Assembly (NCBI RefSeq): GCF_000337535.1
Contig: NZ_AOIP01000031.1
Coordinates: 1 to 64,000 of the forward strand
DNA from: Natrialba aegyptia DSM 13077
GTDB lineage: Archaea; Halobacteriota; Halobacteria; Halobacteriales; Natrialbaceae
Length of the DNA stretch: 64,000 nucleotides
Direction of reading: 5' to 3'
In this document: one piece after another, positions 5,482 to 46,044 of the stretch
Numbering within the stretch: the stretch's first letter is position 1
How the letters are laid out: every line of letters begins with the position of its first letter
Translations under genes and position numbers: made by a program
The notes under the pieces: generated by a model
Seen by the model: only the letters and a program-made list of their open reading frames with translations
Database searches by the model: none
Told to the model about the DNA's origin: nothing

Positions 5482-5620
5482 AGCTGGCTGCTTTCGGCTC
5501 GACCGTAAAAAGGATGCGCGCCTGCGGTATTGATACTGGCAGTTGCGACTGGCTTCGGTTCCAGGAAGGCCATGAACTCGTGTTCAGTACAACGGTACAA
5601 CGGTAGACCCTCGATCTATC

Positions 5621-5631
5621 AAAAATTTAAT
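5621..5631 (+). promoter_or_regulatory. TATA-box candidate for the CPBP gene
   Basis: AAAAATTTAAT is an AT-rich box about 30 bases before the ATG at 5656. This spacing is expected for a leaderless haloarchaeal transcript and supports choosing the inner ATG over an upstream in-frame start. Confidence 0.5.
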
Positions 5632-5655
5632 CAAGTGTGTTGTCAATATGCGCAC

Positions 5656-6330
5656 ATGGTGGAAAACGGATACCGCTCTGTGGTCGCCGTGACTCGCCTC
5701 CCGCCGCTCACAATCGGGAATCTGGCCCTCGCCCTCTTTGGATTACCGCTAGTTGTTATCCTGCTACGAGTGACTAATACGGAGATCACGCCGGTCGTTA
5801 CGATCGGAATCTACTGGGCGCTGGCTCTCACCGTTATCGGGATCGCCGTGAGCGGCGAGGGCCTCTCGTTGCCCGACCTCGGGTTCCGGCGACCAGCCCT
5901 CGTCGATCTCGGATACATCCTCGTGACGAGCGTCAGCATTCTGTTCGTATACATTGTGACGCCACCGCTCATCGAGGCGGTGGGCCTCCCGGTGAGTGAG
6001 GGTGCTGGCACGATGGGTGCTGGTGTCGGGATCGGCATGGCGCTCGCTCAGTCCGTGACAGTCGGGATCGTCGAGGAGATTCTTTATCGAGGATACCCTA
6101 TCGAGCGACTGCTTGCGTACACGGAGAGTTCGCTTGTCGCCGGCGGGATCACGTGGATCGCGTTCACGGTCGCACACGCTCTGAATTGGCCGCTTGGGAG
6201 CCTCCTTCAGACCGCACTGGTTGCCGCTGTTCTTACCGTCGTTTACCTCCGTCGGCGGACGCTCGTTCCCGTTGCCGGCGCACACGTCCTCGTCTGGGTC
6301 TTTGCGGCCCTTGGCCAGTTCTACGCCTAA
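5656..6330 (+). CDS. CPBP-family intramembrane metalloprotease
   Basis: A 224-residue polytopic membrane protein of the CPBP (CAAX protease/Abi, Rce1-like) family. Motif 1 is seen as EEILYRGYPIERLL and motif 2 as FTVAHALNWPL, supplying the Glu-Glu and His residues of the intramembrane site. About six or seven hydrophobic helices are visible. The start at MVENGYRS is chosen from the AT-rich box 30 bases upstream. Archaeal members may process prenylated or small membrane proteins; the target here is unknown. Confidence 0.85.
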   Translation: MVENGYRSVVAVTRLPPLTIGNLALALFGLPLVVILLRVTNTEITPVVTIGIYWALALTVIGIAVSGEGLSLPDLGFRRPALVDLGYILVTSVSILFVYIVTPPLIEAVGLPVSEGAGTMGAGVGIGMALAQSVTVGIVEEILYRGYPIERLLAYTESSLVAGGITWIAFTVAHALNWPLGSLLQTALVAAVLTVVYLRRRTLVPVAGAHVLVWVFAALGQFYA

Positions 6331-6444
6331 CCGTGTCGATGATATGGTTTTCTCATTTAGAATTCCGCCTCAAACCAAGGCGATTGATTCGGCACGTTCG
6401 TGTCCTCCAGTAACATATTTTCCAGTATCAAACCTATCGTTACT

Positions 6445-6666
6445 ATGAACGCTGTGAAGGGCCTCTACAACCGCGCTGATGAATGGGCAAAGGGGCTCTC
6501 TCGCGTGTCGTATGCAGCCTTCTTAGGGCTGTCAGCAGGTATTGGTGTTCTCGTCGTCAATCTACTGTTGAGTGCCGAGCTCGCCCTCGTTCAGTCTCTC
6601 ACGATGGCGCTCGTCATGTTCAGTTTGAAGTGTGTATTCGGGTTGCATCAGACGACCGAAGAGTGA
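6445..6666 (+). CDS. small membrane protein
   Basis: A 73-residue hypothetical protein beginning MNAVKGLYNRADEWAKGL, an amphipathic N-terminus followed by two hydrophobic helices (about 19-40 and 43-64) and the short tail HQTTEE. It lies about 110 bases after the CPBP protease gene on the same strand. An upstream start at 6400 is possible, but the extra residues look unlike a haloarchaeal N-terminus. The family is not recognised. Confidence 0.6.
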   Translation: MNAVKGLYNRADEWAKGLSRVSYAAFLGLSAGIGVLVVNLLLSAELALVQSLTMALVMFSLKCVFGLHQTTEE

Positions 6667-6812
6667 ACGCGATGACTACGTCCCGCACTTCTCACCGGAA
6701 TCTCCGAATACCGAACTCGGCTACGTTCTCCCGAGAAAGACAATGGTGACAGATAGTCTACCAAAACGACGTTCAGCGAACGTTTACACGGTTCTGCGTC
6801 GATGCGTTCGGT

Positions 6813-8690: not shown

Positions 8691-8739
8691 GCCGGTATCG
8701 GGCGATCAGTGCGGCGAACGGCGTCGCCGGCGGTAGTGT

Positions 8740-8775
8740 CGGCGTCATCGTTGGCGTCGGCGTCATCGTTGGCGT
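8740..8775. repeat. 18-bp tandem repeat, two exact copies
   Basis: The unit CGGCGTCATCGTTGGCGT occurs twice head to tail just upstream of tsr3. If translated in the tsr3 frame it gives Ser/Ala-rich low complexity, which argues that the coding start lies downstream of it. Confidence 0.85.
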
Positions 8776-8834
8776 CGGCCTCAGCATCGATGTCGGTCGC
8801 GGCGCTTTTGGTTCACCCCTGCATTGACACGCAC

Positions 8835-9362
8835 GTGGAGTGTCACATCTACTACGAGGGCGACGACGACCCGGAGAAGTGCACCGCCCGCCGCCTCGAG
8901 CAGTTCGACGAGGCGACGCTTCACCGCACGATGGGGCAGGTTCCCTACGGCGTCGTCCTCAACCCCCACGCCGACCGGGCACTCTCGCCGGCCGACGCCG
9001 AGGACGGCCTCGGGACACTGGTCGCCCTCGACTGCTCCTGGGAGTCCGCCGAAGCGGCCTCCTTCAAAATGAACGGCGTCCACCGGGCCCTTCCCTTTCT
9101 CGTCGCCGCAAACCCGGTCAACTACGGCCGGCCGTTTCAGCTCACAACTGTCGAGGCACTCGCCGGCGCGTGCTGTATCTTCGGTGACCAAAGCCGGGCC
9201 GAGGACCTTCTCGAACCCTTCCGCTGGGGCGAAACTTTCCTGACGCTCAACGAAGAGCCGCTGCGCCGGTACAGCGAATGTGTGAACTCGAGCGACGTCG
9301 TCGCGGTGCAGGACGATTATCTGGCCGACGACGACCCCTCATCTGGCGAGGAGATGACATAG
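8835..9362 (+). CDS. tsr3: 16S rRNA aminocarboxypropyltransferase Tsr3
   Basis: About 175 residues of the Tsr3 (DUF367) family, which transfers the 3-amino-3-carboxypropyl group of SAM to a hypermodified small-subunit rRNA position. Visible family segments are [38 protein letters not shown], the [17 protein letters not shown] block and [11 protein letters not shown]. The GTG at 8835 is preferred: the AT-rich stretch GCGCTTTTGG about 30 bases upstream fits a leaderless promoter, and upstream in-frame codons run through a tandem repeat. An ATG at 8790 is the alternative. Confidence 0.88.
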
Positions 9363-9446
9363 GTCAATGCCTGCTCCATGCGACAGCAGGTACGACGCCA
9401 CGACAGGACCACAGCGGTTATATGCACCACGAGCAAACGGAGCGAC

Positions 9447-9596
9447 ATGCCAAGTTTCGACGCGGCCGAAGATCGGATGCTCCAGAAACTGATCTGCATG
9501 CGCTGTAACGCACGAAACGCACCGGAATCCGACCGCTGCCGCAAGTGCGGCTACAAGAACCTGCGACCGAAGGCCAAGGAACCGCGCGCAGCATAA
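9447..9596 (+). CDS. rpl40e: 50S ribosomal protein L40e
   Basis: A 49-residue basic zinc-ribbon protein, the usual archaeal L40e length. The cysteine pairs C-x2-C ([10 protein letters not shown]) and C-x2-C ([15 protein letters not shown]) form the zinc site. A TATA-like GGTTATATG lies about 27 bases before the ATG, fitting a short-leader transcript. It follows tsr3, so two ribosome-related genes sit together. Confidence 0.95.
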
Positions 9597-9692
9597 TCTG
9601 ACCGTCTCTCTCCGCGTTCTCTCGCACCCGATAGCGTCTCGCTTCAGCTTATGGGTAGCTCAGCCCCATCTTTCTGCTCGATCGTATCGAAG

Positions 9693-9703
9693 AATTTAAT
9701 TTA
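9693..9703 (+). promoter_or_regulatory. TATA box for the leader ORF/channel-like gene
   Basis: AATTTAATTTA is centred about 26 bases before the ATG at 9724. It would place transcription initiation at or beside that ATG and not at the downstream channel-like gene start. Confidence 0.6.
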
Positions 9704-9723
9704 TCTATGACTAACTTGCTACT

Positions 9724-9792
9724 ATGTACACATCACATTTCGTGAGTGTTTGTGGAGAGAAATACCGCAGCCAGGACGGTGATCGCCAATGA
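9724..9792 (+). CDS. 22-residue leaderless ORF overlapping the next gene
   Basis: A short ORF of 22 sense codons beginning MYTSHFVSVCGEKYR and ending in TGA. Its last four bases, ATGA at 9789-9792, overlap the ATG of the membrane protein gene. The TATA box at 9693-9703 places the transcript start at this ATG. It may be a regulatory leader peptide or only a translational entry point for the downstream gene. No homology is known to me. Confidence 0.45.
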   Translation: MYTSHFVSVCGEKYRSQDGDRQ

Positions 9793-10508
9793 CGCCACTG
9801 GTCGTCGACGCGCTCCAAACCGAACTCGAGGCCGTCACTGTCGACGCGTTCGCGTTTCTCATGGCCGCGTTCGTCGCCGCCATCTTCATCGCCGTCGGCG
9901 TCTTCGCTGGACGCAAACTACAGCCGATCGTTCGTCGGTTCGGCCGGCGAATCGAACTCGACGCCCGCGTTCGCGAAACGCCGTTCGGTGAACTCTTTGC
10001 CGACGAGTCAACGGCGGTCTCGAACGCTGCAGGGGAACTTGCCAAGTACTACGTCGTTCTCCTGGCGGCCTTCGCCGCCGCGACGTATCTCGGCCTGTCG
10101 TCCGTGAGCGACTGGATCGAGTTCATCGTCGGCTTCGCGCCGAGGGGGGTCGCCGGCTTTGCCATCCTCGTCGTCGGATTCGTCATTGCCGACCCGATTG
10201 CGACGATCGTCCGCGAGGCGGAGGCGGTTCAGGAGAGCAGAGTTGCGCCCCTCGCTGGCGGTGTGACGAAGGCACTCGTTTGCTTCGTAGCCGCGGTTAT
10301 CGGTCTCGATACGATGGGGTTGAACGTGGCGATCCTCTATACGTTCGGCCAGGCGTTTGCGTTCGCCGCCGCGCTTGGTATCGCCCTGGCGATCGGCATC
10401 GCCTTCGGCTGGGGGGGCAAAGAATACGTCGCTGCCAACGCTGACGACTGGTTTGGCCAGTCTCCGGAATCGCGCGCCGATCCAGCGGCGGTTTCGGACG
10501 ACGACTGA
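9789..10508 (+). CDS. mechanosensitive-channel-like membrane protein
   Basis: A 239-residue protein with four or five hydrophobic helices (about 20-42, 82-105, 115-137, 155-175 and 185-210) and a hydrophilic tail. The last helix leads into GIAFGWGGKEYVA, which resembles the pore-helix/beta entry of small-conductance channel relatives (the conserved TM-helix family), but no full MscS beta domain follows. A non-canonical channel or channel-associated protein is inferred. Its ATG overlaps the stop of the 22-codon ORF by four bases, suggesting translational coupling. Confidence 0.7.
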   Translation: MTPLVVDALQTELEAVTVDAFAFLMAAFVAAIFIAVGVFAGRKLQPIVRRFGRRIELDARVRETPFGELFADESTAVSNAAGELAKYYVVLLAAFAAATYLGLSSVSDWIEFIVGFAPRGVAGFAILVVGFVIADPIATIVREAEAVQESRVAPLAGGVTKALVCFVAAVIGLDTMGLNVAILYTFGQAFAFAAALGIALAIGIAFGWGGKEYVAANADDWFGQSPESRADPAAVSDDD

Positions 10509-10604
10509 CGACTGACCGTCGATTTTCCCGCTATCGAGGGATGCTCGTCCCGCAAAACGCGTGCGACGAGCGGTGTGGAGTGCCAGCGGTAGGTACTGCC
10601 AGCG

Positions 10605-11216
10605 TCACTCGTCCGGATACTTCGGCTCGCGTTTCTCCGCTCGGTCGAGTGCCGTCTCGACGACATCGCGAACGTCACCCTGGAAGACGTCGCCGTGGCC
10701 CGCGTACATGTACTCGACGCCATCCGGTAGTCGATCGAGGAGTCGGTCGATGCTCTCGATGAGTTGTTCGCGGGACTGTCCCGCCATGTCGGTGCGCCCG
10801 AAACTTCCGTAGTCGAACGCGCCGTCGTCGTGGACGACCACGTCGCCCGAGAACAGCGCCGTCTCCGAGACGAACGACACGTGGTCGTCGGCGTGACCCG
10901 GCGTGTAGACGACGGTGAACTCGTCGTCGCCGATCTGGACGGTCTCCCCGTCATCAATCGAGTAATCCCGTTCGGGATGGTGATCGTAGGCGTACACCTC
11001 GGGGTCGAAGGCATCGCAGACGGCCTCGAGTTCACCGACGTGGTCGCCGTGCTGATGGGTCATCACGACAGTATCGACATCGTCCGTGTACGTGCGAATC
11101 TCGTCGACGACGCCGTCCCAGGCACCTGCATCGACGAGCGTCGTTCGGTCGCCGACGACGAGGAACGCGTTACACGTGAACGTTTCTGCGGCTTCCGTAA
11201 CGTGGTGGACCTCCAT
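10605..11216 (-). CDS. MBL-fold metallohydrolase
   Basis: A 203-residue metallo-beta-lactamase fold hydrolase of the small glyoxalase II-like type. Metal motifs are THQHGDHVGE, the TPGHADDHVSF His, the Asp in LFSGDVVV and the late His in YAGHGDVF. The substrate is unknown. The start MEVHHVTEAAETF is preferred, because an AT-rich ATTTT lies about 30 bases upstream; a start nine residues earlier (11243) is possible. Transcribed alone on the minus strand. Confidence 0.87.
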   Translation of the reverse strand: MEVHHVTEAAETFTCNAFLVVGDRTTLVDAGAWDGVVDEIRTYTDDVDTVVMTHQHGDHVGELEAVCDAFDPEVYAYDHHPERDYSIDDGETVQIGDDEFTVVYTPGHADDHVSFVSETALFSGDVVVHDDGAFDYGSFGRTDMAGQSREQLIESIDRLLDRLPDGVEYMYAGHGDVFQGDVRDVVETALDRAEKREPKYPDE

Positions 11217-11395
11217 GTGTGCCCAGTCGAGACCCGGCATCAAAATCGTGCCGTCCGCGGTCGCCTGTCGTCTTCCCGCTGAAATGGCTTATTCGCCGTT
11301 CCTCCCGGTATACCCCTCGATATCCGAGAATTCATAAACGAATATAAACGTGTACCCCCGGAACTTTTGAACCGGTAGGTCCAAGTAGATACTGT

Positions 11396-11578
11396 ATGGG
11401 ATTCGGGAGCTACGACGAATCCGAGCAACAGGAAGTTGATGCTGATTTTGACGACGATGACGCTGTCAAATCCGGAGAGAACAGCCACGACGGAACGATC
11501 GAGTTCGAAAACGGCGCGTCCAGCGACGAACTCCTCGACCGCCTCAAGGAGATCAAAGACGAGGACGACGACGGCTAA
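11396..11578 (+). CDS. DUF5786-type acidic small protein
   Basis: A 60-residue, very acidic haloarchaeal protein (MGFGSYDESEQQEVDADFDDDD... ending LKEIKDEDDDG). The MGFGSYDESEQ opening followed by an Asp run and a short C-terminal helix is what I recall of the haloarchaea-specific DUF5786 family. Function is unknown. The 20-base gap to the DUF99 gene suggests co-transcription. Confidence 0.75.
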   Translation: MGFGSYDESEQQEVDADFDDDDAVKSGENSHDGTIEFENGASSDELLDRLKEIKDEDDDG

Positions 11579-11605
11579 CGCCGAACTCGATTTCAGCCAG
11601 TGCCG

Positions 11606-12202
11606 ATGAAACCCGGGGGACGAGCACTGGGAATCGCCGAGTCGTATCGCAGGGACCACAGTCACGATTCGACGAGCGACCGCGATCGAAGTACGCTCGC
11701 AGGTGCCGTCGTTCGGGCCGACTGCGTCGTCGACGGGCTGGCCTACGAGCACTGTCGCGTCGGCGGAACCGATGCAACCGATAGCGTCGGCTCGCTCCTC
11801 GAGACGGTGGCTCGGCCCGACGTGCAATACGTCCTGCTCGGTGCCATCGCCCCGGCCTGGTACAATTTTTTCGACCTCGAACGGATTCACGAGGCCGCGG
11901 CTCGTCCAGTGATCGCCGTCACGTTCGAGTCGAGTTCAGGACTCGAATCGGGGCTTCGCGACGCGTTTTCGGGTCCCGAACTCCGGCAGCGACTCGCGGT
12001 CTATCGGCGGTTGCCGACGCGAACCGAACTGACGGTCAACGATGAGACGGTCTACGCGCGGTATCTGGGATGCGATCGCGCCGAGGCCGTCTCCGTTCTT
12101 CGTGCGTTTACGCCGGACGGCGGGCGTCCGGAGCCGCTTCGCGTCGCGCGGCTTGCGGCACGGGCAGGCGATTCGTACGTCGATGCGGTCGGGGCCGAGT
12201 AA
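11606..12202 (+). CDS. DUF99 family protein
   Basis: A 198-residue protein of the archaeal DUF99 family. Visible segments are KPGGRALGIAESYR at the N-terminus, LAGAVVRADCVVDGLAYEHCRVGGTDAT and LLGAIAPAWYNFFDLERI, with RPVIAVTFE following. Some DUF99 relatives are described as deoxyuridine-directed endonucleases (endonuclease V-like fold). That activity is a family-level inference, though the neighbouring uracil-DNA glycosylase makes a repair role attractive. An in-frame GTG two codons upstream is the alternative start. Confidence 0.85.
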   Translation: MKPGGRALGIAESYRRDHSHDSTSDRDRSTLAGAVVRADCVVDGLAYEHCRVGGTDATDSVGSLLETVARPDVQYVLLGAIAPAWYNFFDLERIHEAAARPVIAVTFESSSGLESGLRDAFSGPELRQRLAVYRRLPTRTELTVNDETVYARYLGCDRAEAVSVLRAFTPDGGRPEPLRVARLAARAGDSYVDAVGAE

Positions 12203-12214
12203 GTGCACAGGAGT

Positions 12215-12299
12215 GATACGGACTGCTGTCAGTCATTTCCGGCGCAACCGCAGGACGGGCGCGGTTGCGCCGATAAATCGTTACAGCAGACCGTATGAG
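12215..12299. repeat. palindromic intergenic element, copy A
   Basis: An ~85-base composite inverted repeat. Outer arms begin GATACGGACTGCTGT and end ACAGCAGACCGTATG (one mismatch). The inner stem is GGCGCAACCGC / GCGGTTGCGCC around the loop AGGACGGG. It lies between the DUF99 and uracil-DNA glycosylase genes. A second copy is at 20887-20971. The short length and lack of coding potential suggest a MITE-like or REP-like element. Confidence 0.85.
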
Positions 12300-12454
12300 T
12301 CACCGCGAGTCGTCGCGAGTGCGCACAGGCCGGAGAGACCGGGGAGCTGTGGCGAGATTCATCGGCTGACATGACCACGGTGAGCGAGCGTTCGGCTACC
12401 GAGGCAGCAGCTGCGACCCGAAAGACGTAGTAGGTGGCCCGCGGACCCACACCC

Positions 12455-13051
12455 ATGGGAGAGATGGAGGACTTCTGTGTCACCGAGTGTACGCGCTGTC
12501 CAGCACTCGTCGACTCACGCAGCCAAATCGTCAACGGCACCGGCCCCGAGGATGCCGACATCCTGTTCGTCGGCGAGGGCCCCGGTGCACAGGAGGACAG
12601 CCAGGGCGAACCGTTCGTCGGCCGCAGCGGCTCCGTCCTCGACGACCAGCTCCGAATCGTCGGCCTCGATCGCGACTCGGTTCGCATCACGAACTGCGTT
12701 CGCTGTCGCCCGCCTGAGAACCGCGATCCCAATACGGATGAACTCGAGAACTGTCGAGGCTACCTCGAGCAAGAAATCGACCTGCTCGACCCAGACGTAA
12801 TCGTCACGCTCGGGAAGGTCCCAAGCGAACACCTGCTCGACCGCTCGGTTGCCGTCACGAAAGAGGCCGGCTCCGTCGAGGAGATTCGTCTCGGCGGCGC
12901 GCCCCGCCGGCTGCTGATCTGCGTCCATCCGGCGGCGACGCTGTACGATCGGAGCCAGGAGGAGACGTTCGAATCGGCGCTCGAACGCGCTGCCGACCTC
13001 GCCGGTGTCGACGGCAGCGCCGGTGGACAGACGCGACTCGACGGCTTCTAA
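12455..13051 (+). CDS. family 4 uracil-DNA glycosylase (4Fe-4S)
   Basis: A 198-residue type-4 uracil-DNA glycosylase, which removes uracil from DNA to begin base-excision repair. Motif A is GEGPGAQEDSQGEPFVGRSG, and the later His segment CVHPAATL matches the family motif. Four cysteines (CTRCPAL near the start and NCVRCRPPENR in the middle) are the expected 4Fe-4S ligands. The ATG at 12455 is chosen; a GTG at 12434 and an ATG at 12464 are alternatives. It is separated from the DUF99 gene by the palindromic element. Confidence 0.93.
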   Translation: MGEMEDFCVTECTRCPALVDSRSQIVNGTGPEDADILFVGEGPGAQEDSQGEPFVGRSGSVLDDQLRIVGLDRDSVRITNCVRCRPPENRDPNTDELENCRGYLEQEIDLLDPDVIVTLGKVPSEHLLDRSVAVTKEAGSVEEIRLGGAPRRLLICVHPAATLYDRSQEETFESALERAADLAGVDGSAGGQTRLDGF

Positions 13052-13056
13052 CGGCT

Positions 13057-13434
13057 CTAGACCTCGTCCCGATCCGTAAACGTATACCGCCGGGCGATTT
13101 GCCCCTCCTCGAGTTCGTGAACGTCGGCGAAGTCGAACTCGACGCGCTCGCCGTCCTGCACGCCGGAGAACGTACCCCGAACCGCTGCAGTGGTCCCGTC
13201 GACGAGGACGTCGTGGATTTCGTGGTTGCCGTCTTCGAGGGGGCGGCCGGTCAGATAGAACTCGCGGAGTTCCTCTCGACCGCTGATCGAACCCTGTCCG
13301 GGGCGTTCGTATCGAACGTCGTCGGTGAAGAGCGAGACGAGTTCGTCGTAGCGTTCGGCGTCGACGGCGTCGTAGTAGTCGCGGACGACGGCTTCCGGGT
13401 CTGCGTCGGCGGCATCAGTGTCGGTATCTGCCAT
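13057..13434 (-). CDS. NTF2/SnoaL-like fold protein
   Basis: A 125-residue SnoaL/NTF2-like protein. After an acidic Asp/Ala N-terminus comes the typical helix AVVRDYYDAVDAERYDELVSLFTDDVRYERPG and a sheet ending in ARRYTFTDRDEV. It is a paralog of the gene at 5134-5481. The ligand or reaction is unknown. Convergent with the uracil-DNA glycosylase, with five bases between stops. Confidence 0.78.
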   Translation of the reverse strand: MADTDTDAADADPEAVVRDYYDAVDAERYDELVSLFTDDVRYERPGQGSISGREELREFYLTGRPLEDGNHEIHDVLVDGTTAAVRGTFSGVQDGERVEFDFADVHELEEGQIARRYTFTDRDEV

Positions 13435-13583
13435 ACGGGAGCATCGTTGTCGGGAAGCCTAATGGCTGTGTTTTTCCGGAGTTGCGGGGGAAGAGTTGCG
13501 AGTTGTGAGCCGGGGGCCACGAATTGTGAGTCGAACATTGCACGAATGGCAATGCACTTCAACACGCCCCTCCGAGTTCAGGT

Positions 13584-38131: not shown

Positions 38132-38476
38132 ATGTCACAGATTCAGCTCCAATCGTCTAATCGGCCACGCTGGCCCGCATATCTGCTGTCCGCATTTATC
38201 GCCGGCCTCGGACACTGGTATCTGGGCTACTGGAAACGCGGTGCGAGTTGGTTCGGGCTCTACGTGCTCGCGCTTGCGTTCCTGAGCGCACGGACGGTTT
38301 CCGGTGCGTTCGAACCCGGTGACCCCTTCGTCGTTACCGCGCTGCAGTTCGATGCCGTGACCTACACCGACGTTGCAGTCCCGCTTGCCGTGTTACTGGT
38401 CTGCCTTCTCGACGTCTATCTGCTCGGCCTCGCGACGGCCCGATCGTCCGAGGACCCGACGACGTCTAACTCGTAG
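38132..38476 (+). CDS. small membrane protein
   Basis: A 114-residue membrane protein with about three helices: PAYLLSAFIAGLGHWYLGYWKRG, WFGLYVLALAFLSA and VPLAVLLVCLLDVYLLGLA. The AGLGHWYLG-x-WKRG segment resembles the TM2-like hairpin of small uncharacterised prokaryotic proteins. Its gene stops just before the decayed nuclease fragment that marks the left edge of the sulfur module. Confidence 0.65.
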   Translation: MSQIQLQSSNRPRWPAYLLSAFIAGLGHWYLGYWKRGASWFGLYVLALAFLSARTVSGAFEPGDPFVVTALQFDAVTYTDVAVPLAVLLVCLLDVYLLGLATARSSEDPTTSNS

Positions 38477-38512
38477 CTGCATGCTGTGATCGGGACGAAC
38501 TCGGCTACCGGT

Positions 38513-38630
38513 CGACGCGGACGCGCTTCGGCGGGCGAAATCCCACGTCCGATTCGCCACCGGTCGCGACAGCCGGCACAAGCGCATCCGAATCAGAACA
38601 CGGCGATTGTAACGACAAGCGGGATGCTCG
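38513..38630 (+). pseudogene. decayed fragment of the beta-CASP nuclease gene
   Basis: By eye about 85% identical over ~118 bases to 44140-44256, inside the intact beta-CASP gene and in the same orientation. Long shared words include GCGGGCGAAATCCCACG and GCGGGATGCTC. A one-base length difference near 38588 breaks the frame. Only this internal part remains, with no start or stop. It forms a direct repeat with the intact gene, enclosing the sulfur module. Confidence 0.85.
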
Positions 38631-38665
38631 GAACCGAAGCTCCGCTAGCAGTTGCTGCTTGACCC

Positions 38666-39367
38666 TCATTTTTCACGCAGATTTTCAGAGCGCAGTTCTC
38701 CCTTCGCGTGCCACGTCCGGGGGCGAACAGCAGTAATAGCTGCACCGAGATAGAAAAGTACCACAATTCCCACCACGATAGACCCGGGAATCATCCCGAT
38801 CGCAGCACTTGTCACCCACGGCTCTGGAGAGAAGGCGGTGATACGCACGAGCCACGCAGCGAGTAATACAGTGAAAAGCGGCAGGTATACCCGTCGGAGA
38901 CGGTGTGCTATCGCTTCCTCTGTGCTAATCTTGATCGTCGGTTCCCGATAATCCTGACTCAACGTTTCACGCCAGTTGGAATCAGGTAGTCCAGCGGAGG
39001 GGTCGAGCCCGTATGCGAAGACGTTTTCTTGCAATTTCCGGACTCTGCTTCGCCAGATGTCGTATCCCCGATACCGACGGGCTTCGATCAGCAGGAACAC
39101 CGAGAGCGTGGCCACACCGATGAGAAGGATATAGTGAGGAATATCGGGCCGTGAAAACGCCCACGTGAGGATTCCAGAGATGACAAGAACTGCCCAATTC
39201 GTCGTCCGATCGAGCCGCTCTCGCCAAAATTTCATGCGATGGATCTCCCCGCGGTAGAGGTGAGCCGTTGCCGAGCTCGGCGCCATCTCTTCTTCGAGAA
39301 GACCCTCTCCCAGCTCCCTGTGTTCCGAGTCGCCGGGATCGATCTCCTTGGCTGATGATCGAGACAT
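38666..39367 (-). CDS. DUF2270 membrane protein
   Basis: A 233-residue protein of family DUF2270. After a soluble N-terminus (MSRSSAKEIDPGDSEHRELG), a conserved block (HLYRGEIHRMKFWRERLDRTTNWAVLVISGILTWAFSRPDIPHYILL) leads into two helices. A cytoplasmic segment (FLLIEARRYRGYDIWRSRVRKLQENVF) precedes two more helices near the C-terminus. Its ATG overlaps the stop of the dsrE-like gene (TAATG), so it is translated from that message. A membrane partner for sulfur transfer is an inference from this coupling. Confidence 0.85.
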   Translation of the reverse strand: MSRSSAKEIDPGDSEHRELGEGLLEEEMAPSSATAHLYRGEIHRMKFWRERLDRTTNWAVLVISGILTWAFSRPDIPHYILLIGVATLSVFLLIEARRYRGYDIWRSRVRKLQENVFAYGLDPSAGLPDSNWRETLSQDYREPTIKISTEEAIAHRLRRVYLPLFTVLLAAWLVRITAFSPEPWVTSAAIGMIPGSIVVGIVVLFYLGAAITAVRPRTWHAKGELRSENLREK

Positions 39368-39951
39368 TAGACGAGAAGTTGGATGTCGGATTCGGCCATG
39401 TCCTGAATCGCTGTCGCCGCCCCGACGCCGACGGTGACGCCATCGTAAAAATCGTTCTCGTCGTAATCCATCAGGTCGATCGTCATCTGGCACGCCTGGA
39501 ACTCGACGCCCATCTCCAGCGAGGTTTCGATGAGTTCTTCGATCGTGGCGGTGTCGTTGTCCTCGATCTGCTTTTCCATCATCTTCGTCGACACTCGGTC
39601 CATGCCCGGCAGTGCTGCAATTGCGTTTGGAACGGGCATGTTGGGATTTCCGACCGAACTCAGCTTCAGGTCCTTCGACTTCGCCTCGTGGAGGATGTCT
39701 AACCCCCAGAACGTGTGAAAGACCGTCACCTCGTAGCCGAACGCTGCGGCCGTGCTCGCGAGAATCAGCGGCGGATACGCCATATCGAGCGTCCCCTTCG
39801 TCGCGATGATGGACATCTTCGGCTGTGTGTCATCGTTTTCGGTTTCCACGGCGTCGAGCCGGTCCTCGAGTTCATCGATTCTCTCTTCGAGCGCTGCGCG
39901 GCGCAGTGTCTCATCGTCGGCGGTGGACGCCTGTGTGGTGTCCGTACTCAT
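39367..39951 (-). CDS. DsrE/DsrF/DrsH-like sulfur-transfer protein
   Basis: A 194-residue protein. A predicted coiled coil (about 14-40, ALEERIDELEDRLDAVE) precedes a DsrE/DrsH-like domain: MSIIATKGTLDMAYPPLILASTAAAFGYEVTVFHTFWGLDIL, then GVEFQACQMTIDLM with the conserved cysteine expected to carry sulfane sulfur. It lies four bases downstream of tusA and overlaps the DUF2270 start by one base, giving a three-gene operon tusA-dsrE-DUF2270. Sulfur relay from TusA is the family-based expectation. Confidence 0.9.
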   Translation of the reverse strand: MSTDTTQASTADDETLRRAALEERIDELEDRLDAVETENDDTQPKMSIIATKGTLDMAYPPLILASTAAAFGYEVTVFHTFWGLDILHEAKSKDLKLSSVGNPNMPVPNAIAALPGMDRVSTKMMEKQIEDNDTATIEELIETSLEMGVEFQACQMTIDLMDYDENDFYDGVTVGVGAATAIQDMAESDIQLLV

Positions 39952-39955
39952 CGTA

Positions 39956-40198
39956 TTACTCCGCCTTGCGGACGTAGTGCGTGAAGACGTCGTCTCCCTC
40001 GTCCTGATCGACGAGTTCGACGCCAGCAGTCGTGTCTGCCCAGCCAGCGATGTCGCTCATACTTCCTGGGTCGGTCGCGAGGACTTGCAGAACATCACCT
40101 TCCGCGAGGTCGTCGATGTTCTGTTTCGTCTTGACGACCGGCATCGGGCAGTTCTGTCCCTTCACGTCGAGCGTCTCGGTGATTTTGAATTCGGTCAT
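39956..40198 (-). CDS. tusA: TusA-family sulfurtransferase
   Basis: An 80-residue TusA (SirA) protein with the persulfide-carrying cysteine (Cys17) in KGQNCPMPVVKTKQNIDDL, and the conserved LQVLATDPGS segment. TusA proteins pass sulfane sulfur between proteins. First gene of a minus-strand operon; divergent from the rhodanese-MBL gene at 40403 across about 200 bases. Confidence 0.95.
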   Translation of the reverse strand: MTEFKITETLDVKGQNCPMPVVKTKQNIDDLAEGDVLQVLATDPGSMSDIAGWADTTAGVELVDQDEGDDVFTHYVRKAE

Positions 40199-40402
40199 GG
40201 TATTGACTTCACTGCCCAATACCGTTGCCGGTAGTAAAAGCGTGTTGGTGGTATCCCAAATACTGGGCACTACTATATCACCACCTATGCAGTATAACAG
40301 TCATAAATACGCATAGAGGGGAGAATTGCTGAATAGTATTGTGTAGATGTAGATCTACTATGCAAAGTCTTATTGGAGAGCCGTTGGTAGAAGGGAGTGA
40401 CG
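40199..40402. promoter_or_regulatory. divergent promoter region of the sulfur module
   Basis: An AT-rich 204-base region between tusA and the rhodanese-MBL gene. Candidate operators are CCCA-AATAC-TGGG (about 40254-40266) near tusA and the palindrome GTAGATCTAC (40349-40358) before the MBL promoter (CTTATT, about 27-32 bases before the ATG at 40403). Confidence 0.5.
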
Positions 40403-41584
40403 ATGACCGAAGGGAACCTTCTCGACGCCGAGGACGCAGTCGCATCGATCACGCCGAAGGACCTGAAAGAGCAAATCGACAGCGGTGAGGACACATTCAT
40501 CCTCGACGCTCGCTCTGAGAGCGACTTCGAGGAGTGGCACATCGACGGTGAGAACGTCGAGATCGTGAATTACCCCTACTTCCAACTGCTGGACGGCCTC
40601 CCGGAGCAACTCCTCGCAGAGCTTCCCGAAGAACAGCAGATCACAGTCCTGTGTGCGAAAGGCGGTTCCAGCGAGATGGTCGCCGAAAGTCTCGAGGAAG
40701 AAGGGTACGACGTCAACCATCTCGAACGCGGGATGAAGGGCTGGGCGCGCATCTGCGAGTACACTGAACTCGACGTCGAGACCGATGCGACGATCGTGCA
40801 GTACCAGCGTCCGTCGAGTGGCTGTCTCGCGTATCTCGTCGTTTCGGACGGTGAAGCCGCAGTCATCGACCCGCTACGAGCGTTCACTGACGACTATACC
40901 CAAGACGCTCGAAATCTCGATGCAGAACTCTCGTACGCGATCGACACGCACGTTCACGCAGATCACGTCTCTGGAGTTCGGGCGGTCGCCGAGCGGACAG
41001 ACGCAACTGCGATTATGCCCGAAGCAGCTGCGGCGCGCGGCTTCGAGTACGACCGCCGGTACGAAACCGTCGAAGACGGCGACGCGCTCACAGTCGGAGA
41101 CATCGAGATCGACGTGTATCACACGCCCGGCCACACGACGGGAATGACCGCATACAAGGTTGGGAACGTCCTGTTTACCGGTGACGGACTATTCACCGAA
41201 AGTGTCGCACGTCCTGACCTCGAAAACCCCGAGGCAGCGCAAGACGCCGCGAGGACGCTCTACGAATCGCTGACCGAGAAGGTGGTGATGCAGTCTGACG
41301 ATACGATCATCGCACCTGCGCACTTCAGCGATTCCGCAACGCCAAACGAGGACGGCACGTACACCGCTGTACTCGGTGAACTGCGAGACACGATGGACGC
41401 ACTGTCGATGGACGAAGAGTCGTTCGTCGAGTTCACCGCCTCGGACATGCCGCCGCGACCGGCCAACTACGAAGAGATCATCGCCACCAACCTCGGTCGG
41501 GAATCGCCCGACGACGAGGAAGCGTTCGAGCTCGAACTCGGGCCGAACAACTGCGCAGCCGGCGAGCAGGGGCTACTGAACTAA
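40403..41584 (+). CDS. rhodanese-metallo-beta-lactamase fusion (persulfide dioxygenase-like)
   Basis: A 393-residue protein: N-terminal rhodanese domain with active-site loop CAKGGSSEM (Cys84), then an MBL domain with HVHADH (183-188) and the later HTPGHTTGM and FTGDGLF metal motifs. It ends GPNNCAAGEQGLLN. It is a paralog of the protein at 3660. Its position at the head of the two YeeE genes and opposite tusA supports a role in persulfide or thiosulfate sulfur handling. The ATG at 40403 is preferred over a GTG two codons earlier. Confidence 0.92.
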   Translation: MTEGNLLDAEDAVASITPKDLKEQIDSGEDTFILDARSESDFEEWHIDGENVEIVNYPYFQLLDGLPEQLLAELPEEQQITVLCAKGGSSEMVAESLEEEGYDVNHLERGMKGWARICEYTELDVETDATIVQYQRPSSGCLAYLVVSDGEAAVIDPLRAFTDDYTQDARNLDAELSYAIDTHVHADHVSGVRAVAERTDATAIMPEAAAARGFEYDRRYETVEDGDALTVGDIEIDVYHTPGHTTGMTAYKVGNVLFTGDGLFTESVARPDLENPEAAQDAARTLYESLTEKVVMQSDDTIIAPAHFSDSATPNEDGTYTAVLGELRDTMDALSMDEESFVEFTASDMPPRPANYEEIIATNLGRESPDDEEAFELELGPNNCAAGEQGLLN

Positions 41585-41585
41585 G

Positions 41586-42080
41586 ATGAGCGAATTCACA
41601 CCGTTGTTCGCGCTCGGTGAACTCTTCCCGCGAGGGATCCTGCCGTATCTCTTCGGCGGACTGCTCGTCGGACTCGGCGTCGCAGTCATCTACCTCGCCA
41701 CGGGGATCATCGCCGGCGCGAGCACGTTCCTCGAGTCGACGCTGTCGTACGTCTCCGACGTGCCCCGGTACAACCGGTTCAAGTACGTCCAGTCGCGAGA
41801 CTGGCGACTCGTATTCACGGCGGGCATCGTCACCGGCGCCGCTGTCTACGCCGTCCTCTTTCAAGGAGCGATCTGGACGACCGAGGTCCAGTGGTGGCGG
41901 TTGCTCGGCGGCGGCTTTCTCGTCGGCGTCGGGACGCGCCTCGGCAAAGGTTGCACGTCGGGCCACGGCGTTTGCGGCGTCGGCTCGCTCTCGAACACCT
42001 CGCTGGTGAACGTGGCGACGTTCCTCGCTATCGCGATCGGGACAGCCCAACTCGTCCAAGCGATGGGGGTGGCACCATGA
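41586..42080 (+). CDS. YeeE/YedE family membrane protein, first half
   Basis: A 164-residue membrane protein with about four helices and the family signature GTRLGKGCTSGHGVCGVGSLS, whose cysteines relay sulfur in thiosulfate-importing YeeE. In bacteria one chain has both repeats; here they are on two genes. It begins one base after the rhodanese-MBL stop and overlaps the next gene by ATGA, so all three are co-translated. Confidence 0.93.
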   Translation: MSEFTPLFALGELFPRGILPYLFGGLLVGLGVAVIYLATGIIAGASTFLESTLSYVSDVPRYNRFKYVQSRDWRLVFTAGIVTGAAVYAVLFQGAIWTTEVQWWRLLGGGFLVGVGTRLGKGCTSGHGVCGVGSLSNTSLVNVATFLAIAIGTAQLVQAMGVAP

Positions 42081-42547
42081 GCGGCACCCGCCGTAGCCCG
42101 TTGTTCATGCCGATAATCTACGTAGGTGGGCTGATCTTCGGCTTCGGCCTCGCGATCAGCGGCATGGCTCGCCCCGAGGTCGTACTAGACTTCCTCCAGT
42201 TCGAGGACTTCGGCCTCTTGTTCGTCATGGGTGGTGCAGCCGTCGTGACGGGGGTCACGTTCGCCGTCGCCACCCGCTATCTCGATCAGGCGCCGTTGAC
42301 GGCTAGCGAGTACACGCGCCGAGTAAAGGAGTTCGACCGCAACGTCGTCATCGGAGGGACAATCTTCGGCGTCGGTTGGGGAGTCTCAGGAATCTGCCCC
42401 GGAGCCGCATACGCGAGCGTCGGTATCGGTAACTATCCGATCCTGTGGGCGGTCTTCGGAATGTTCCTCGGCGCGTACGCACAGGGCTACTGGCGAACAC
42501 TTCGCTCGAACACGATCGACGACGTGACCGAAACTGCTTCCAGCTAA
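42077..42547 (+). CDS. YeeE/YedE family membrane protein, second half
   Basis: A 156-residue partner of the preceding gene, with GGLIFGFGLAISGMARP at the start and the second Cys motif VGWGVSGICPGAAYASVGIG. About four helices. Together the two products would form a thiosulfate/sulfane sulfur channel. The start ATG overlaps the previous stop by four bases (ATGA). Confidence 0.93.
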   Translation: MSGTRRSPLFMPIIYVGGLIFGFGLAISGMARPEVVLDFLQFEDFGLLFVMGGAAVVTGVTFAVATRYLDQAPLTASEYTRRVKEFDRNVVIGGTIFGVGWGVSGICPGAAYASVGIGNYPILWAVFGMFLGAYAQGYWRTLRSNTIDDVTETASS

Positions 42548-42566
42548 CCGTCGATGGACCTACGGA

Positions 42567-42586
42567 ATCACCTGATACTGGGTGAT
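42567..42586 (+). terminator. hairpin downstream of the YeeE genes
   Basis: ATCACC and GGTGAT arms around an 8-base loop, 20 bases after the stop at 42547. There is no T-run, so termination is only a possibility. Confidence 0.3.
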
Positions 42587-42771
42587 CCAGAGAACGGACT
42601 AACTCGCTCGGTATTGAGGCATTTAATACGGTGTACCTCGAACTCTTCTCCGGTGCGACGATCGTGGTTAGCACTCCGATCGTGCTCGCTCTAATCTGTG
42701 TACTTCGGCAGGAGTGAACCGGAATATGGGTTCGGCTCGTATCGTCATAGATTGGTGCAGTATTGTGGTGG

Positions 42772-42792
42772 CTATACAAATAATTTGTATAG
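42772..42792. promoter_or_regulatory. perfect operator palindrome over the promoter of the HTH gene
   Basis: Arms CTATACAAA and TTTGTATAG, perfect complements around TAA. The right arm TTTGTATAG overlaps the likely TATA box about 25-30 bases before the ATG at 42816. Direct repeats of TAATACC follow. This is a strong candidate for an autoregulatory site. Confidence 0.75.
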
Positions 42793-42815
42793 GTAATACC
42801 TAATACCTATAACTT

Positions 42816-43088
42816 ATGCCCGACTCGATGAGTGAAATGCTTCGGCGGGATATGCGGTGTGAGGGCCTGCTGGATTGTTTCCACAACCTCAAAGAAATCG
42901 ACAAAGACGTGTTCCGACTACTAAACGAAGCCGACGAGCCGCTCACCGTTGACGTAATCGCCGACGAGATCGCCCAGGAGATGCAGCGGATGCTCAACGA
43001 CTGGTACGCACAAATGGGCCAACTCACCGGTGAATTCAGCGAAAAATACGGCGGCACGTCCAGACAGACGCCGACCGTCGAAAGCTGA
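42816..43088 (+). CDS. HTH regulator of the sulfur module, internally deleted
   Basis: A 90-residue protein. The N-terminus MPDSMSEMLRRDMRCEGLLDCFHNLKEIDKDVFRLLNEADEPLTVDVIADEI matches a haloarchaeal winged-helix family that commonly stands next to MBL/YeeE genes. The C-terminus AQEMQRMLNDWYAQMGQLTGEFSEKYGG is that family's tail. The expected ~45-50 residues between them, containing the recognition helix and wing, are missing, and the join is in frame. Three cysteines in such proteins' N-terminus often act as sensors; here Cys15 and Cys21 remain. DNA binding is doubtful, though dimerisation may persist. Confidence 0.75.
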   Translation: MPDSMSEMLRRDMRCEGLLDCFHNLKEIDKDVFRLLNEADEPLTVDVIADEIAQEMQRMLNDWYAQMGQLTGEFSEKYGGTSRQTPTVES

Positions 43089-43093
43089 TCTCT

Positions 43094-43329
43094 CTATTTT
43101 CGAACTCCGACGAGAATGAACGCCTCAGTTCGTGTCGCTTGATGTCGAATTTTGAAGTCGCGATCCCGGAGCGAGGAACTGTCTCTTCGGCAGTAAATCG
43201 TTCGTCTATGAGTGGACCTGTTTCTTCAATTCCCTTAGCTGACCAGTCAGCGATAACGAGACGACCACCTGGACGAACGACCCAATCGAGAGTCTCGGGC
43301 AGGTCATCAGGAGCGTTTGTTCCGATCAA
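43094..43329 (-). pseudogene. 3' fragment of a SAM-dependent methyltransferase, frameshifted
   Basis: The minus strand encodes DLPETLDWVVRPGGRLVIADWSAKGIEETGP, then IDERFTAEET, the C-terminal half of a UbiE-like methyltransferase. The expected ending, LRDRDFKIRHQATRTEAFILVGVRK and a stop, follows in another frame from about 43175. The 5' half is missing: the fragment abuts the promoter and start of the beta-CASP gene. So it is truncated and frameshifted. Confidence 0.8.
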
Positions 43330-43368
43330 CCGATGGCGTCAAGCGGGCGGAATCGTTACGTGTCGACG

Positions 43369-44613
43369 ATGGATATTCGGTTTCTGGGCGGTGCGGGAGA
43401 AGTTGGCCGGAGCGCGATTCTCGTCAACGGCCGACTCCTGCTCGACTACGGAATGAAATCGGAGGACCCGCCGCAGTTCCCGGGCGACGTCGACCCGGAA
43501 GCGGTCGTGGCGAGCCACGGCCACCTCGACCACGTGGGAACGATCCCGTCGCTGCTGAGCGGCAGCGCCCGGCCGCCGATCCACTGGACGCCGCCGACGC
43601 GCGAGCTCGCACTAACCCTCGCGCGGGACACGTTGAAACTGCACGGGGGCACTCTCCAGTGTCCGTTCACCGAGACGGACGTTCAGCGTGTGACGCAGGT
43701 CTCGAAGACCCACGGCTATCGCGAGACGTTCGAGGCCGCTGGCCACGAGGTGACGTTTTTCGACGCCGGTCACATCCCCGGCTCGGCACACGTGCTTGTT
43801 GACGACGGGGAGACTCGACTACTCTATACGGGCGATTTCCACACTGACGACCAGCAGTTAGTGTCCGCCACGACCGCCCGCCCCGACGCCGACGTGGTGG
43901 TCTGTGAGAGCACCTATTCCGACGTCGAACACGAGGAACGATCGACGGTCGAAAGCCGGTTCGTCGAAAGCGTCGAGCGGACACTCTGGGAGGGCGGCAC
44001 CGTCGTGATCCCCGCCTTCGCTATCGGACGCACCCAGGAGATGCTACTGATCTGCGAGCGACACGATATTCCCTGCTACGTGGACGGGATGGGAAAACGA
44101 ATCACGGAGATGCTGCAGCACCACCCAACGTTCGTCCGCGACGCAGACGCGCTTCAGCGGGCGAAATCCCACGCCCGATTCGTCACTGGCCGCGACGGCC
44201 AGCGCAAGCGCATTGCGGAGCAGAACACGGCGATTATAACGACCAGCGGGATGCTCCACGGCGGTCCCGCGATGACCTACGTCCCGGCGATCCGCTCGAA
44301 TCCCGTCAACAAGATCGCCATGACCGGCTACCAGGTCGAGGGAACGCCCGGCCGCGACCTGCTCGACACTGGCAGTGCCGAGATCGACGGCCGGCGGATG
44401 CCCGTTAGCGCCCGGGTCCAACAGTTCGACTTCTCCGCCCACGCCGACCGAGCGGGCTTACTCGAGTTCATCGAGTCCTACCGGGACGAGACGATCCTCG
44501 TGAATCACGGCGACCGCTGTGCGGACTTCGCAGCGGAGCTCCGTGCCGACGGCTTCGATGCGAGCGCCCCCGAACGCGGCGACCGCTGGTGCTGGTGCTG
44601 GTCCGACGCCTGA
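43369..44613 (+). CDS. beta-CASP family MBL nuclease
   Basis: A 414-residue metallo-beta-lactamase/beta-CASP nuclease of the archaeal CPSF/RNase-related type. MDIRFLGGAGEVGRSAILV opens the MBL fold. Metal motifs are SHGHLDHVG, GHIPGSAH, TGDFH, the beta-CASP box AFAIGRTQEML, TTSGMLHGGP and the final SAHADR and VNHGD. No KH domain is present, so it is an aCPSF2/RNase J-like exonuclease or endonuclease (uncertain). The ATG at 43369 is preferred over 43333. A decayed copy of an internal part lies at 38513-38630. Confidence 0.93.
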   Translation: MDIRFLGGAGEVGRSAILVNGRLLLDYGMKSEDPPQFPGDVDPEAVVASHGHLDHVGTIPSLLSGSARPPIHWTPPTRELALTLARDTLKLHGGTLQCPFTETDVQRVTQVSKTHGYRETFEAAGHEVTFFDAGHIPGSAHVLVDDGETRLLYTGDFHTDDQQLVSATTARPDADVVVCESTYSDVEHEERSTVESRFVESVERTLWEGGTVVIPAFAIGRTQEMLLICERHDIPCYVDGMGKRITEMLQHHPTFVRDADALQRAKSHARFVTGRDGQRKRIAEQNTAIITTSGMLHGGPAMTYVPAIRSNPVNKIAMTGYQVEGTPGRDLLDTGSAEIDGRRMPVSARVQQFDFSAHADRAGLLEFIESYRDETILVNHGDRCADFAAELRADGFDASAPERGDRWCWCWSDA

Positions 44614-44640
44614 GAACCCGGACCCGCGCGGTGACCCCAC

Positions 44641-46044
44641 TCACAGGACGCCGACCGAACTCCCGACGACGATGCAGGCGACCAAGAGCGCAAGCACGCT
44701 TCCCACAGCCAGGGGAACGTTCTCCATGGCCTTCTCGTGAACCGCCATCGCCGCATACTCCTCGCGGAACGCCTCCCGATTCGCCTCGTCGTAGAAGTAC
44801 TTCCGGCGCAGCGCGAACCGTTCGGTGACCGCACAGCCGGTACAGACCGGCTCGTGCTCGACTCGCTCCGTCTCGATGTGGTCGTCGCAGTTGATGCTGC
44901 CGCAGTTCGCACAGTACGTGTAGGTCGCGTCGATGCCGTCCGCCCCACAGTGGACGCACTCCCGGAAGTCGTTCCTGGTCGTCGACCGTGCCGACCCGGC
45001 CGCGTCGAACTCGTAGCGATACGCGTACTCCCCGAGTTCGACGCGCGAGTGAACTCGCGGGAGGTAGATGGGGTCGATCGACCGGATCGACACGTCCGAG
45101 CGCGAGGGCGTGCAGGTTTTCTCGTAGTCGACGTTGTTGTCGCCGGTGTAGTGAACCGTCGTCGTGTGGGCCTGTCGGAGCCGGTCGACCGCCCACTCTT
45201 TGTACGCCGTTTCGGTTCGGCCGAATCGCTCGCGCTCGACCGCGTCGACGGCCGCGTCGACGGCCGCGTCGACGGCCGCGTCGACGGCCGCGTCGAGTTC
45301 AGTCCGGCGATCCTCGAGATCGATGCGCGGTGCGGCCCGGTTCGTGACGAGGGCGCTGCGCTCGCCGCGTGCGACGCGCGGCTCGTCGTCGGCGGCGTGG
45401 ACGACTAGTTCGGTCGTCTCGTTCAGACTGTGGATAACGCCGACCGACGTTTCGAAGGTGGCGCTCGTGCTGGCCGAGATGGAGACCATCGGCTGAAACG
45501 TGACGCTCGTCTCGGGCGTCGGAATCGTGGCGGGGTCGATGTTCTCGATCTCGCGGACGACGTCGAAGACGGGCGCTGCAGGGCCCGTGTTGGGAGGGAA
45601 CGGGGCGAGTGCCTCGTCGCAGAGGATCTCGATGCGGCCGTTGTAGAGGTCCATCCCGATCTCCTCGCCGATTTCGCGCAGGTCCGTACCGTCGACGAGT
45701 TCGACGCCCCCGTCGCTCTCGGTGCCGAGTTCCTGCGCGTACTCTCGGGCCGGGCCGGTGAACCGCCCCGTCGTCGCGACCATGCCTCGTTTCGGGCCGC
45801 CGTAGTCGTAGGTCGCGACCGCGGAGTGGAGTTTTTGGACGACGGGGCGGCTGACGGTATCGGTGTGCTTGCACTCGACGACGACCGCGCGCCGTCGGCC
45901 GTCGACGACCTCCTCCATCAGAATGTCCCGTCCTTCGTCCGCCGTCCGTGCTGACTGGCTGACGTTCTCGTAGCCGCGGTGACGGAACACGTCGACCATC
46001 AGATCCTCGAACTCGTAACCGGAGAGGTCGTCTAGGAGTGCCAT
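44641..46044 (-). CDS. Mrr-type restriction endonuclease with zinc ribbon and membrane anchor
   Basis: A 467-residue protein. The N-terminal Mrr_cat PD-(D/E)xK domain (about 1-135) has YEFEDLMVDVFRHRGYENV, DEGRDI (Asp40) and VVECKH (Glu57, Lys59). A central region contains a tandem (AAVD)n stretch encoded by 12-bp repeats. Cysteine clusters CVHCG, YCANCG and CTGC near the C-terminus form zinc ribbons, and a final hydrophobic helix (PLAVGSVLALLVACIVVGSSVGVL) suggests membrane attachment. Methylation-directed or self-DNA cleavage is unknown; no modification gene is adjacent. Confidence 0.85.
   Translation of the reverse strand: MALLDDLSGYEFEDLMVDVFRHRGYENVSQSARTADEGRDILMEEVVDGRRRAVVVECKHTDTVSRPVVQKLHSAVATYDYGGPKRGMVATTGRFTGPAREYAQELGTESDGGVELVDGTDLREIGEEIGMDLYNGRIEILCDEALAPFPPNTGPAAPVFDVVREIENIDPATIPTPETSVTFQPMVSISASTSATFETSVGVIHSLNETTELVVHAADDEPRVARGERSALVTNRAAPRIDLEDRRTELDAAVDAAVDAAVDAAVDAVERERFGRTETAYKEWAVDRLRQAHTTTVHYTGDNNVDYEKTCTPSRSDVSIRSIDPIYLPRVHSRVELGEYAYRYEFDAAGSARSTTRNDFRECVHCGADGIDATYTYCANCGSINCDDHIETERVEHEPVCTGCAVTERFALRRKYFYDEANREAFREEYAAMAVHEKAMENVPLAVGSVLALLVACIVVGSSVGVL
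45242..45296. repeat. 12-bp tandem repeat within the Mrr-type gene
   Basis: GCGTCGACGGCC is repeated four full times plus a partial copy, encoding AAVD repeats in the gene product. Copy-number change would keep the frame. Confidence 0.9.

Follow-up and report, generated by a model that had tools for sequence, protein, structure and literature searches.

Introduction

Integration into archaeal protein genes is already known: the gene for HMG-CoA reductase is the target of Halorubrum virus BJ1 and an AsnC gene that of NitGar-E6, with the core and arm outcome of tyrosine recombinases described in archaea (PMC8371274), and 14 cases of thaumarchaeal integrated mobile genetic elements (iMGEs) lie in the 3′-distal ends of coding genes (PMC6563490). 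Bacterial islands that target dusA likewise use one protein gene as a recurrent attachment site for varied cargo (PMC4482086). Here we describe a locus of Natrialba aegyptia DSM 13077, in a stretch of 64 000 nucleotides (contig NZ_AOIP01000031.1, positions 1 to 64 000; 'the window'), where a module of sulfur genes lies beside a gene for a beta-CASP nuclease. Segment 38513–43327 is very probably the decayed left part of an integrative element, recombined by a tyrosine recombinase into an attB site at nt 882–888 of the nuclease gene; the window holds attL and the sulfur cargo, and the right end is deleted.

The proposed element family shares with BJ1, NitGar-E6 and the thaumarchaeal iMGEs short core repeats, a coding target, a new stop codon at the joint and, in some of its members, a candidate tyrosine recombinase. 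Unlike their 3′-distal targets, the nuclease gene is cut at about 70% of its length; it is apparently restored from nuclease sequence carried by the element, and one arm is common to unrelated cargoes. Whereas dusA is struck at its 5′ end, the nuclease gene is archaeal and broken mid-gene, and the 5′ part appears to be supplied by the element. The likeness to integron gene cassettes is loose, consisting of different cargoes beside one integrase and core in three of the replicons described below (KLK7, G151 and G168). In the open-licence literature searched, we found neither this nuclease target, nor a gene broken in the middle and restored from element sequence, nor the arm family, which is weak evidence of absence.

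An insertion at the nuclease gene

The order of a small membrane protein gene (at 38132) and the nuclease gene, often with one small gene between them, is the ordinary state in many Natrialbaceae in a gene-order scan. In the nearest named relatives of the window genome, Natrialba asiatica DSM 12278 and N. taiwanensis DSM 12281, the membrane gene is followed directly by a single nuclease gene with a single core, and neither a duplication nor the module is present. Homology of the window to both species breaks off at 38522 and restarts at 43328, so that 38523–43327 is an insertion relative to both. The comparison proposed in the initial annotation, in which such a sister site would argue for insertion at the nuclease gene, therefore came out as predicted. 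Because the nuclease of the two species already has a foreign-type 5′ part, the absence of the module there is not clearly ancestral, and their site may formerly have been host to an element.

The nuclease (start taken as ATG 43369) is a metallo-beta-lactamase (MBL)/beta-CASP/RMMBL protein of 414 aa whose best solved relatives are archaeal CPSF/FttA proteins; it scored below the aCPSF1 cut-off. The direct repeat of this gene reported in the initial annotation was recovered with refined coordinates: 38513–38629 matches 44139–44256 on the same strand with 87% identity over 118 columns and a single 1-nt gap, at E 1e-33 when the whole genome was searched. The right edge of the fragment is exact and is the core GATGCTC at 38623–38629; the fragment terminates in ...AGCGGGATGCTC and the window continues with GGAACCGAAGCTCCGCTAGCAGTTGCTGCTTGA. 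Its first 10 nt (CGACGCGGAC, 38513–38522) are also present as native Natrialba intergenic DNA, and the left edge is therefore a microhomology joint of the deletion that took the 5′ part of the split copy. No repeats except the nuclease pair enclose the module, and no transposase was present among the open reading frames or annotated families of 38477–43368, so the make-up of a composite transposon is not seen here.

A recurrent core and arm

The core occupies nt 882–888 of the nuclease gene and, where the gene is cut, is followed directly by a conserved 23-nt element arm, GGAAACGAAGATYCGCTAGCAGT. The 30-nt pattern of core plus arm matched the window once, with no match expected by chance, and occurred in 10 of the 392 genomes of the order and 8 of the 125 of the family; 12 genomes carried it among about 430 haloarchaeal genomes, where a reversed control pattern had no matches. 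A pattern of 17 nt from the arm matched 252 of 392 genomes and was too short to discriminate, while the 30-nt form was specific.

When the family was searched with the nuclease gene, truncated copies ended repeatedly at query base 888. This joint beside the arm was present in eight genomes, the window genome included (G000, G077, G065, G143, G272, G266, G152 and, with a diverged arm of four mismatches, G153), or nine if Halorientalis regularis, with a variant arm at the same codon, is counted. The joint of the window recurs with the same module behind it in G077, a Haloterrigena-group genome, whereas different DNA follows a window-type joint in G152, G153 and G065, which are placed in one genus (g9), Natrinema, on the basis of their nuclease alleles. 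G143, G272 and G266 come from three other families. The initial annotation had counted a fragment without the module as evidence against its proposal. Such fragments do occur, in G152 and G153, but other cargo fills the same site there, which supports an attachment site.

The 3′ part of the nuclease gene restarts at query 882 in G065, G143, G272 and G266, so that attR can be read in four relatives and GATGCTC stands on both sides of the element as a 7-bp duplicated core. A right arm, CACATCTTCGTTTCC, precedes the 3′ part; it is the inverse of the left arm and is exact in G065, has one mismatch each in G143 and G266, and is diverged in G272. The left (GGAAACGAAGAT) and right (ATCTTCGTTTCC) arms of G065 are near-perfect inverted repeats flanking the core, and the attP form (arm, GATGCTC, arm) reads CACATCTTCGTTTCCGATGCTCGGAAACGAAGATCCGC. 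Inverted arms around a 7-bp core that is duplicated on insertion are the textbook outcome of a tyrosine recombinase. The constant cut at nt 888, the conserved arm and the restart at 882 together point to conservative site-specific recombination. The attP pattern was absent from the IMG/VR viral contigs, and a scan with a loose right-arm pattern gave mostly chance matches.

The element is 42 kb long in both G065 and G143. That of G065 (L121–L123, G065:C1:1036551-1078520) includes an integrase, a spare nuclease and very large proteins (1842, 1819 and 1025 aa), some helicase-like by eye, and looks like defence-type cargo in the same site. In G272 the element is 5.4 kb long, with PIN- and ribbon-helix-helix-like genes by eye; no integrase was seen in these 5.4 kb. 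The nuclease gene is split there (L222, G272:C1:503000-519000, at 5369–11940) and no second copy was detected in the genome, so the nuclease may be dispensable.

Other arrangements were noted at or near such sites. Right-arm-like sequences (CTTCGAAC) stand behind a major facilitator superfamily (MFS) gene at L011:9819, at about 11292 of L128 (reverse strand) and at L226:17750, where they adjoin other cores (AACTCGT, GACTCGT and GATGTTC); these are possibly right ends with altered core specificity. L126 (G082:C1:712000-731000, at 6815–13449) combines a 5′ piece of the nuclease gene with a full-length copy in inverted orientation and a 3′ remnant, another decayed integration with a different layout. 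In Natrinema thermotolerans and N. mahii (L056:4824-9912, L061), 5 kb without att arms lies between the left neighbour genes and the nuclease gene, with transporter-, aminotransferase-, acyl-CoA-dehydrogenase- and Lrp-like genes by eye; the site receives DNA in other ways too.

Recombinases linked to the arm

In G065 the gene for a Phage_integrase protein (PF00589, E 8e-8) lies 1.6 kb from the arm. G143 and G266 have relatives of it at the same place (93% and 78% identity, respectively), so that related recombinase genes are found 1.1–2.4 kb from the arm in all three genomes; a truncated one is present in G228. A second, different site-specific integrase is encoded about 100 bp away on the other side of the core on plasmid NZ_CP149788.1 of Haloterrigena sp. 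KLK7, in G151:C7 and in G168, with no detectable relation to the G065 enzyme beyond both being tyrosine recombinases. An integrase gene is present in the G065, G143 and G266 elements and beside the core on the KLK7 plasmid; none was seen in the window, G077, G152 and G272 elements.

On the KLK7 plasmid and in G151, a Natrinema contig, the integrase, core, arm and sulfur module abut, whereas G168 has other cargo instead. Homology between KLK7 and G168 spans the integrase and core and ends 29 nt behind the first base of the core, and homology between G168 and G162 begins at the core. G162 (L229) and G168 (L228) share a second cassette of about 4.6 kb, 96% identical, whose start coincides in both with this core and arm. 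The DNA to its left differs between the two genomes, and in one of them the KLK7-type integrase is adjacent. The chromosomal nuclease gene of KLK7 (L132) is uninterrupted, so a plasmid attP and a free attB coexist in one cell. The integrase beside the KLK7 attP is a candidate for the enzyme acting at the nuclease site, but so is the G065 enzyme, and a close relative of the KLK7 integrase in G016 (99%) has no such core within the 4-kb locus.

Chimeric nucleases

Trees were built from the nuclease gene divided at the core, with 5′ and 3′ halves treated separately. For the downstream or spare nuclease copies of G077, G065 and G143, whose hosts belong to three genera and two families, the 5′ halves formed one clade (support 100), whereas the 3′ half of the G077 gene clustered with its own genus, as did the attL pieces of G077 and G065. 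Similarly, in four Natrinema genomes (G152, G153, G161 and N. salsiterrestre) the 5′ half grouped with the N. asiatica, N. taiwanensis and window type and the 3′ half with native Natrinema. The best switch points were nt 862–879 (G077), 874–1096 (G152), 864–963 (G153) and 869–921 (G161), which places them at the core or around it. In G065 and G143 the element contains a full spare nuclease copy. Since several intact nucleases switch at or near the core, the elements seem to carry the nuclease 5′ part and to rebuild the gene; we infer that they bring the 5′ part up to the core, attR then being a complete chimeric gene.

The sulfur cargo

The features of the locus are given in Table 1. The gene list of the initial annotation agreed with Pfam and NCBIfam (DUF2270, DsrE2, TusA, rhodanese-MBL, Sulf_transp/YeeE and DUF6691/YeeE), and the cargo is an ordinary haloarchaeal set for sulfur transfer and thiosulfate uptake. 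The codon-use comparison that the initial annotation proposed was not decisive (GC 59% in the cargo and 61–65% in the flanks; GC at third codon positions 59–84%).

DNA similar to the cargo occurs on numerous plasmids, with 123 records matching it at least in part. The modules on KLK7 plasmid NZ_CP149788.1 and in G151 are 86% identical to the window copy, and the clusters of KLK7 and Halopiger xanaduensis (NC_015658.1) have the same gene order as the window, DUF2270-DsrE2-TusA / rhodanese-MBL-YeeE-YeeE, at 79–86% DNA identity. Unlike these megaplasmid clusters, the window copy is chromosomal, stands at attL, and lacks regulator residues, the methyltransferase, the second rhodanese-MBL gene and the MFS gene. 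The window regulator aligns with an intact 134-aa TrmB-type homologue (L115:6343-6747) minus about 44 aa. G077, G151 and KLK7 also have the rest of the methyltransferase, a second rhodanese-MBL and an MFS gene, which the window lost by deletion before 43328. On H. xanaduensis pHALXA01 the module is present, with neither core nor integrase near its left edge.

A restriction-endonuclease-like gene (window 44634–45896), with a 12-bp tandem repeat at 45237–45296 inside it, adjoins the nuclease gene; it is mostly deleted in N. asiatica and present in N. taiwanensis and the window.

Table 1. Features of the attL region, cargo and nuclease gene (window coordinates)
Feature	Position	Strand	Remarks
Small membrane protein gene	38132..38476	+	Left neighbour of nuclease gene, conserved in many Natrialbaceae; no Pfam family
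10-bp microhomology CGACGCGGAC	38513..38522		Native intergenic DNA = nuclease codon ~257; N. asiatica/N. taiwanensis flank homology ends at 38522
Split nuclease remnant, left half of attL	38513..38629	+	Codons ~257–296 of the intact gene
attL core GATGCTC, 7 bp	38623..38629	+	
Conserved element arm GGAACCGAAGCTCCGCTAGCAGT	38630..38652	+	Two substitutions against family consensus; 0 expected in 100 shuffles
DUF2270 membrane protein, cargo	38666..39370	−	PF10028, E 6e-74
DsrE2-type sulfur carrier, cargo	39367..39951	−	PF13686; NF047629 below its cut-off
TusA sulfurtransferase, cargo	39956..40270	−	PF01206
Rhodanese-MBL fusion (persulfide dioxygenase-like), cargo	40397..41584	+	PF00581 and PF00753
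YeeE/YedE thiosulfate-transporter half, cargo	41586..42080	+	PF04143
Second YeeE/DUF6691 half, cargo	42077..42547	+	PF20398, PF04143
Deletion joint	42626..42696		1.1–1.5 kb found here in G077, G151 and KLK7 plasmid absent from window
TrmB-type regulator	42816..43088	+	~44 aa deleted between short direct repeats at 42959–42975
Methyltransferase remnant	43086..43315	−	Remainder deleted
Intact beta-CASP nuclease, 414 aa, CPSF/FttA-like	43369..44613	+	PF10996, PF07521, PF00753; recurrent integration target
Core GATGCTC in intact nuclease gene	44250..44256	+	attB-type site, nt 882–888

Discussion

We propose that a tyrosine recombinase joins the element attP (arm, GATGCTC, arm) to attB inside the nuclease gene. 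Integration would split the gene, fusing its 5′ part to the element arm at attL, the joint seen in the window, and leaving its 3′ part at attR. Elements of the family would also bring nuclease sequence with them: some a 5′ part, from which a chimeric gene is restored at attR, others a complete second copy, and this would account for the intact gene in the same direction downstream. Deletions in the window lineage would have taken the integrase, attR and roughly half of the cargo and trimmed the split copy to 117 nt, with the DUF2270-DsrE2-TusA / rhodanese-MBL-YeeE-YeeE genes left as open frames; the window element is presumably immobile now. What we infer from the sequence comparisons is that the linked recombinases catalyse the reaction, how events followed one another in this genome, and where its intact nuclease copy came from.

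Several observations weigh against this scheme. There is no attR in the window and no G065-type integrase in its genome, and since two unrelated recombinases lie near the arm, one on each side in different elements, the enzyme for the window element is not fixed. The chimera signal of the window nuclease is weak, its 3′ half being about equally distant from all natives; the N. salsiterrestre breakpoint is not resolvable, and G153 gave a second interval, 1099–1126, with another reference set. In sequence, the fragment comes nearest to N. taiwanensis (88%), the intact gene of the window (87%) and G152 (86%), and it is unlike the four other Natrialba. Since even its nearest Natrialba counterparts differ from it by 12–13%, the split copy may have come with a donor instead of having been made in this genome.

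This last point bears on a possible, though in our view not a probable, course of events, in which a ready-made island of attL, module and nuclease from another member of the Natrialbaceae was swapped in by homologous recombination, the site-specific integration having happened in a different lineage, and the island then decayed. The affinity of the fragment to N. taiwanensis and Natrinema foreign-type alleles (88–85%) rather than to the four other Natrialba would fit such a swap, as would the same layout at the same locus in G077 and the abrupt jump in identity to N. asiatica, from 83–85% to 100%, at about 43450–43490. The left flank, however, is native up to 38522, and among Natrialba alleles divergence reaches 20% in some stretches, which leaves room for the fragment to be a local allele. 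The identity jump suggests that a crossover took place later on where the intact gene begins.

The initial annotation was right that the module is an insertion at the nuclease gene; the mechanisms it offered, a single crossover or a duplication followed by decay, did not hold. Campbell-type integration by homologous recombination of a plasmid carrying the module and a nuclease fragment would leave same-strand partial copies around the module, as found, and a crossover is also suggested by the first 100 bp or so of the intact gene and 40 bp upstream, which are 83–85% like the sister species before the match to N. asiatica becomes 100%. Long direct repeats with varying break points would then be expected, but the break is constant at nt 882–888: across eight genomes, whose cargo differs, the copies end on one base and run into one 23-nt arm, and the duplicated core gives an overlap of 7 bp, much less than homologous recombination requires. 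We therefore consider this origin very unlikely, although a crossover may still have exchanged the right joint at a later stage. A tandem duplication of the nuclease gene, with subsequent gene capture and decay, would likewise produce a pair of genes in one orientation; the trees, however, assign the members of each pair in G077, G065 and G143 to different lineages. The truncation point does not vary: a conserved arm is fused to it, and the gene restarts at nt 882. The probability of a tandem duplication seems to us close to negligible.

Beyond the window, the evidence tips slightly towards a cassette-like family of haloarchaeal elements, several without an integrase of their own, that share core and arm and use the mid-nuclease attB in several families. 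The gene would be rebuilt by the element-borne 5′ part, so that chimeras would take the place of the nuclease time and again while accessory genes (sulfur, defence-type, toxin-antitoxin-like) are gained and lost. A 2021 review of archaeal tyrosine recombinases described recombination in coding-gene sites as untried and posed the dyad symmetry of targets as a question (PMC8371274); here the symmetry is in the element arms and not obviously in the nuclease gene, which bears on that question. The findings offer a concrete attachment site and candidate recombinases for the entry of plasmid-borne sulfur, defence-type and other gene blocks into haloarchaeal chromosomes, and would account for mosaic nuclease alleles that otherwise resemble puzzling gene transfer.

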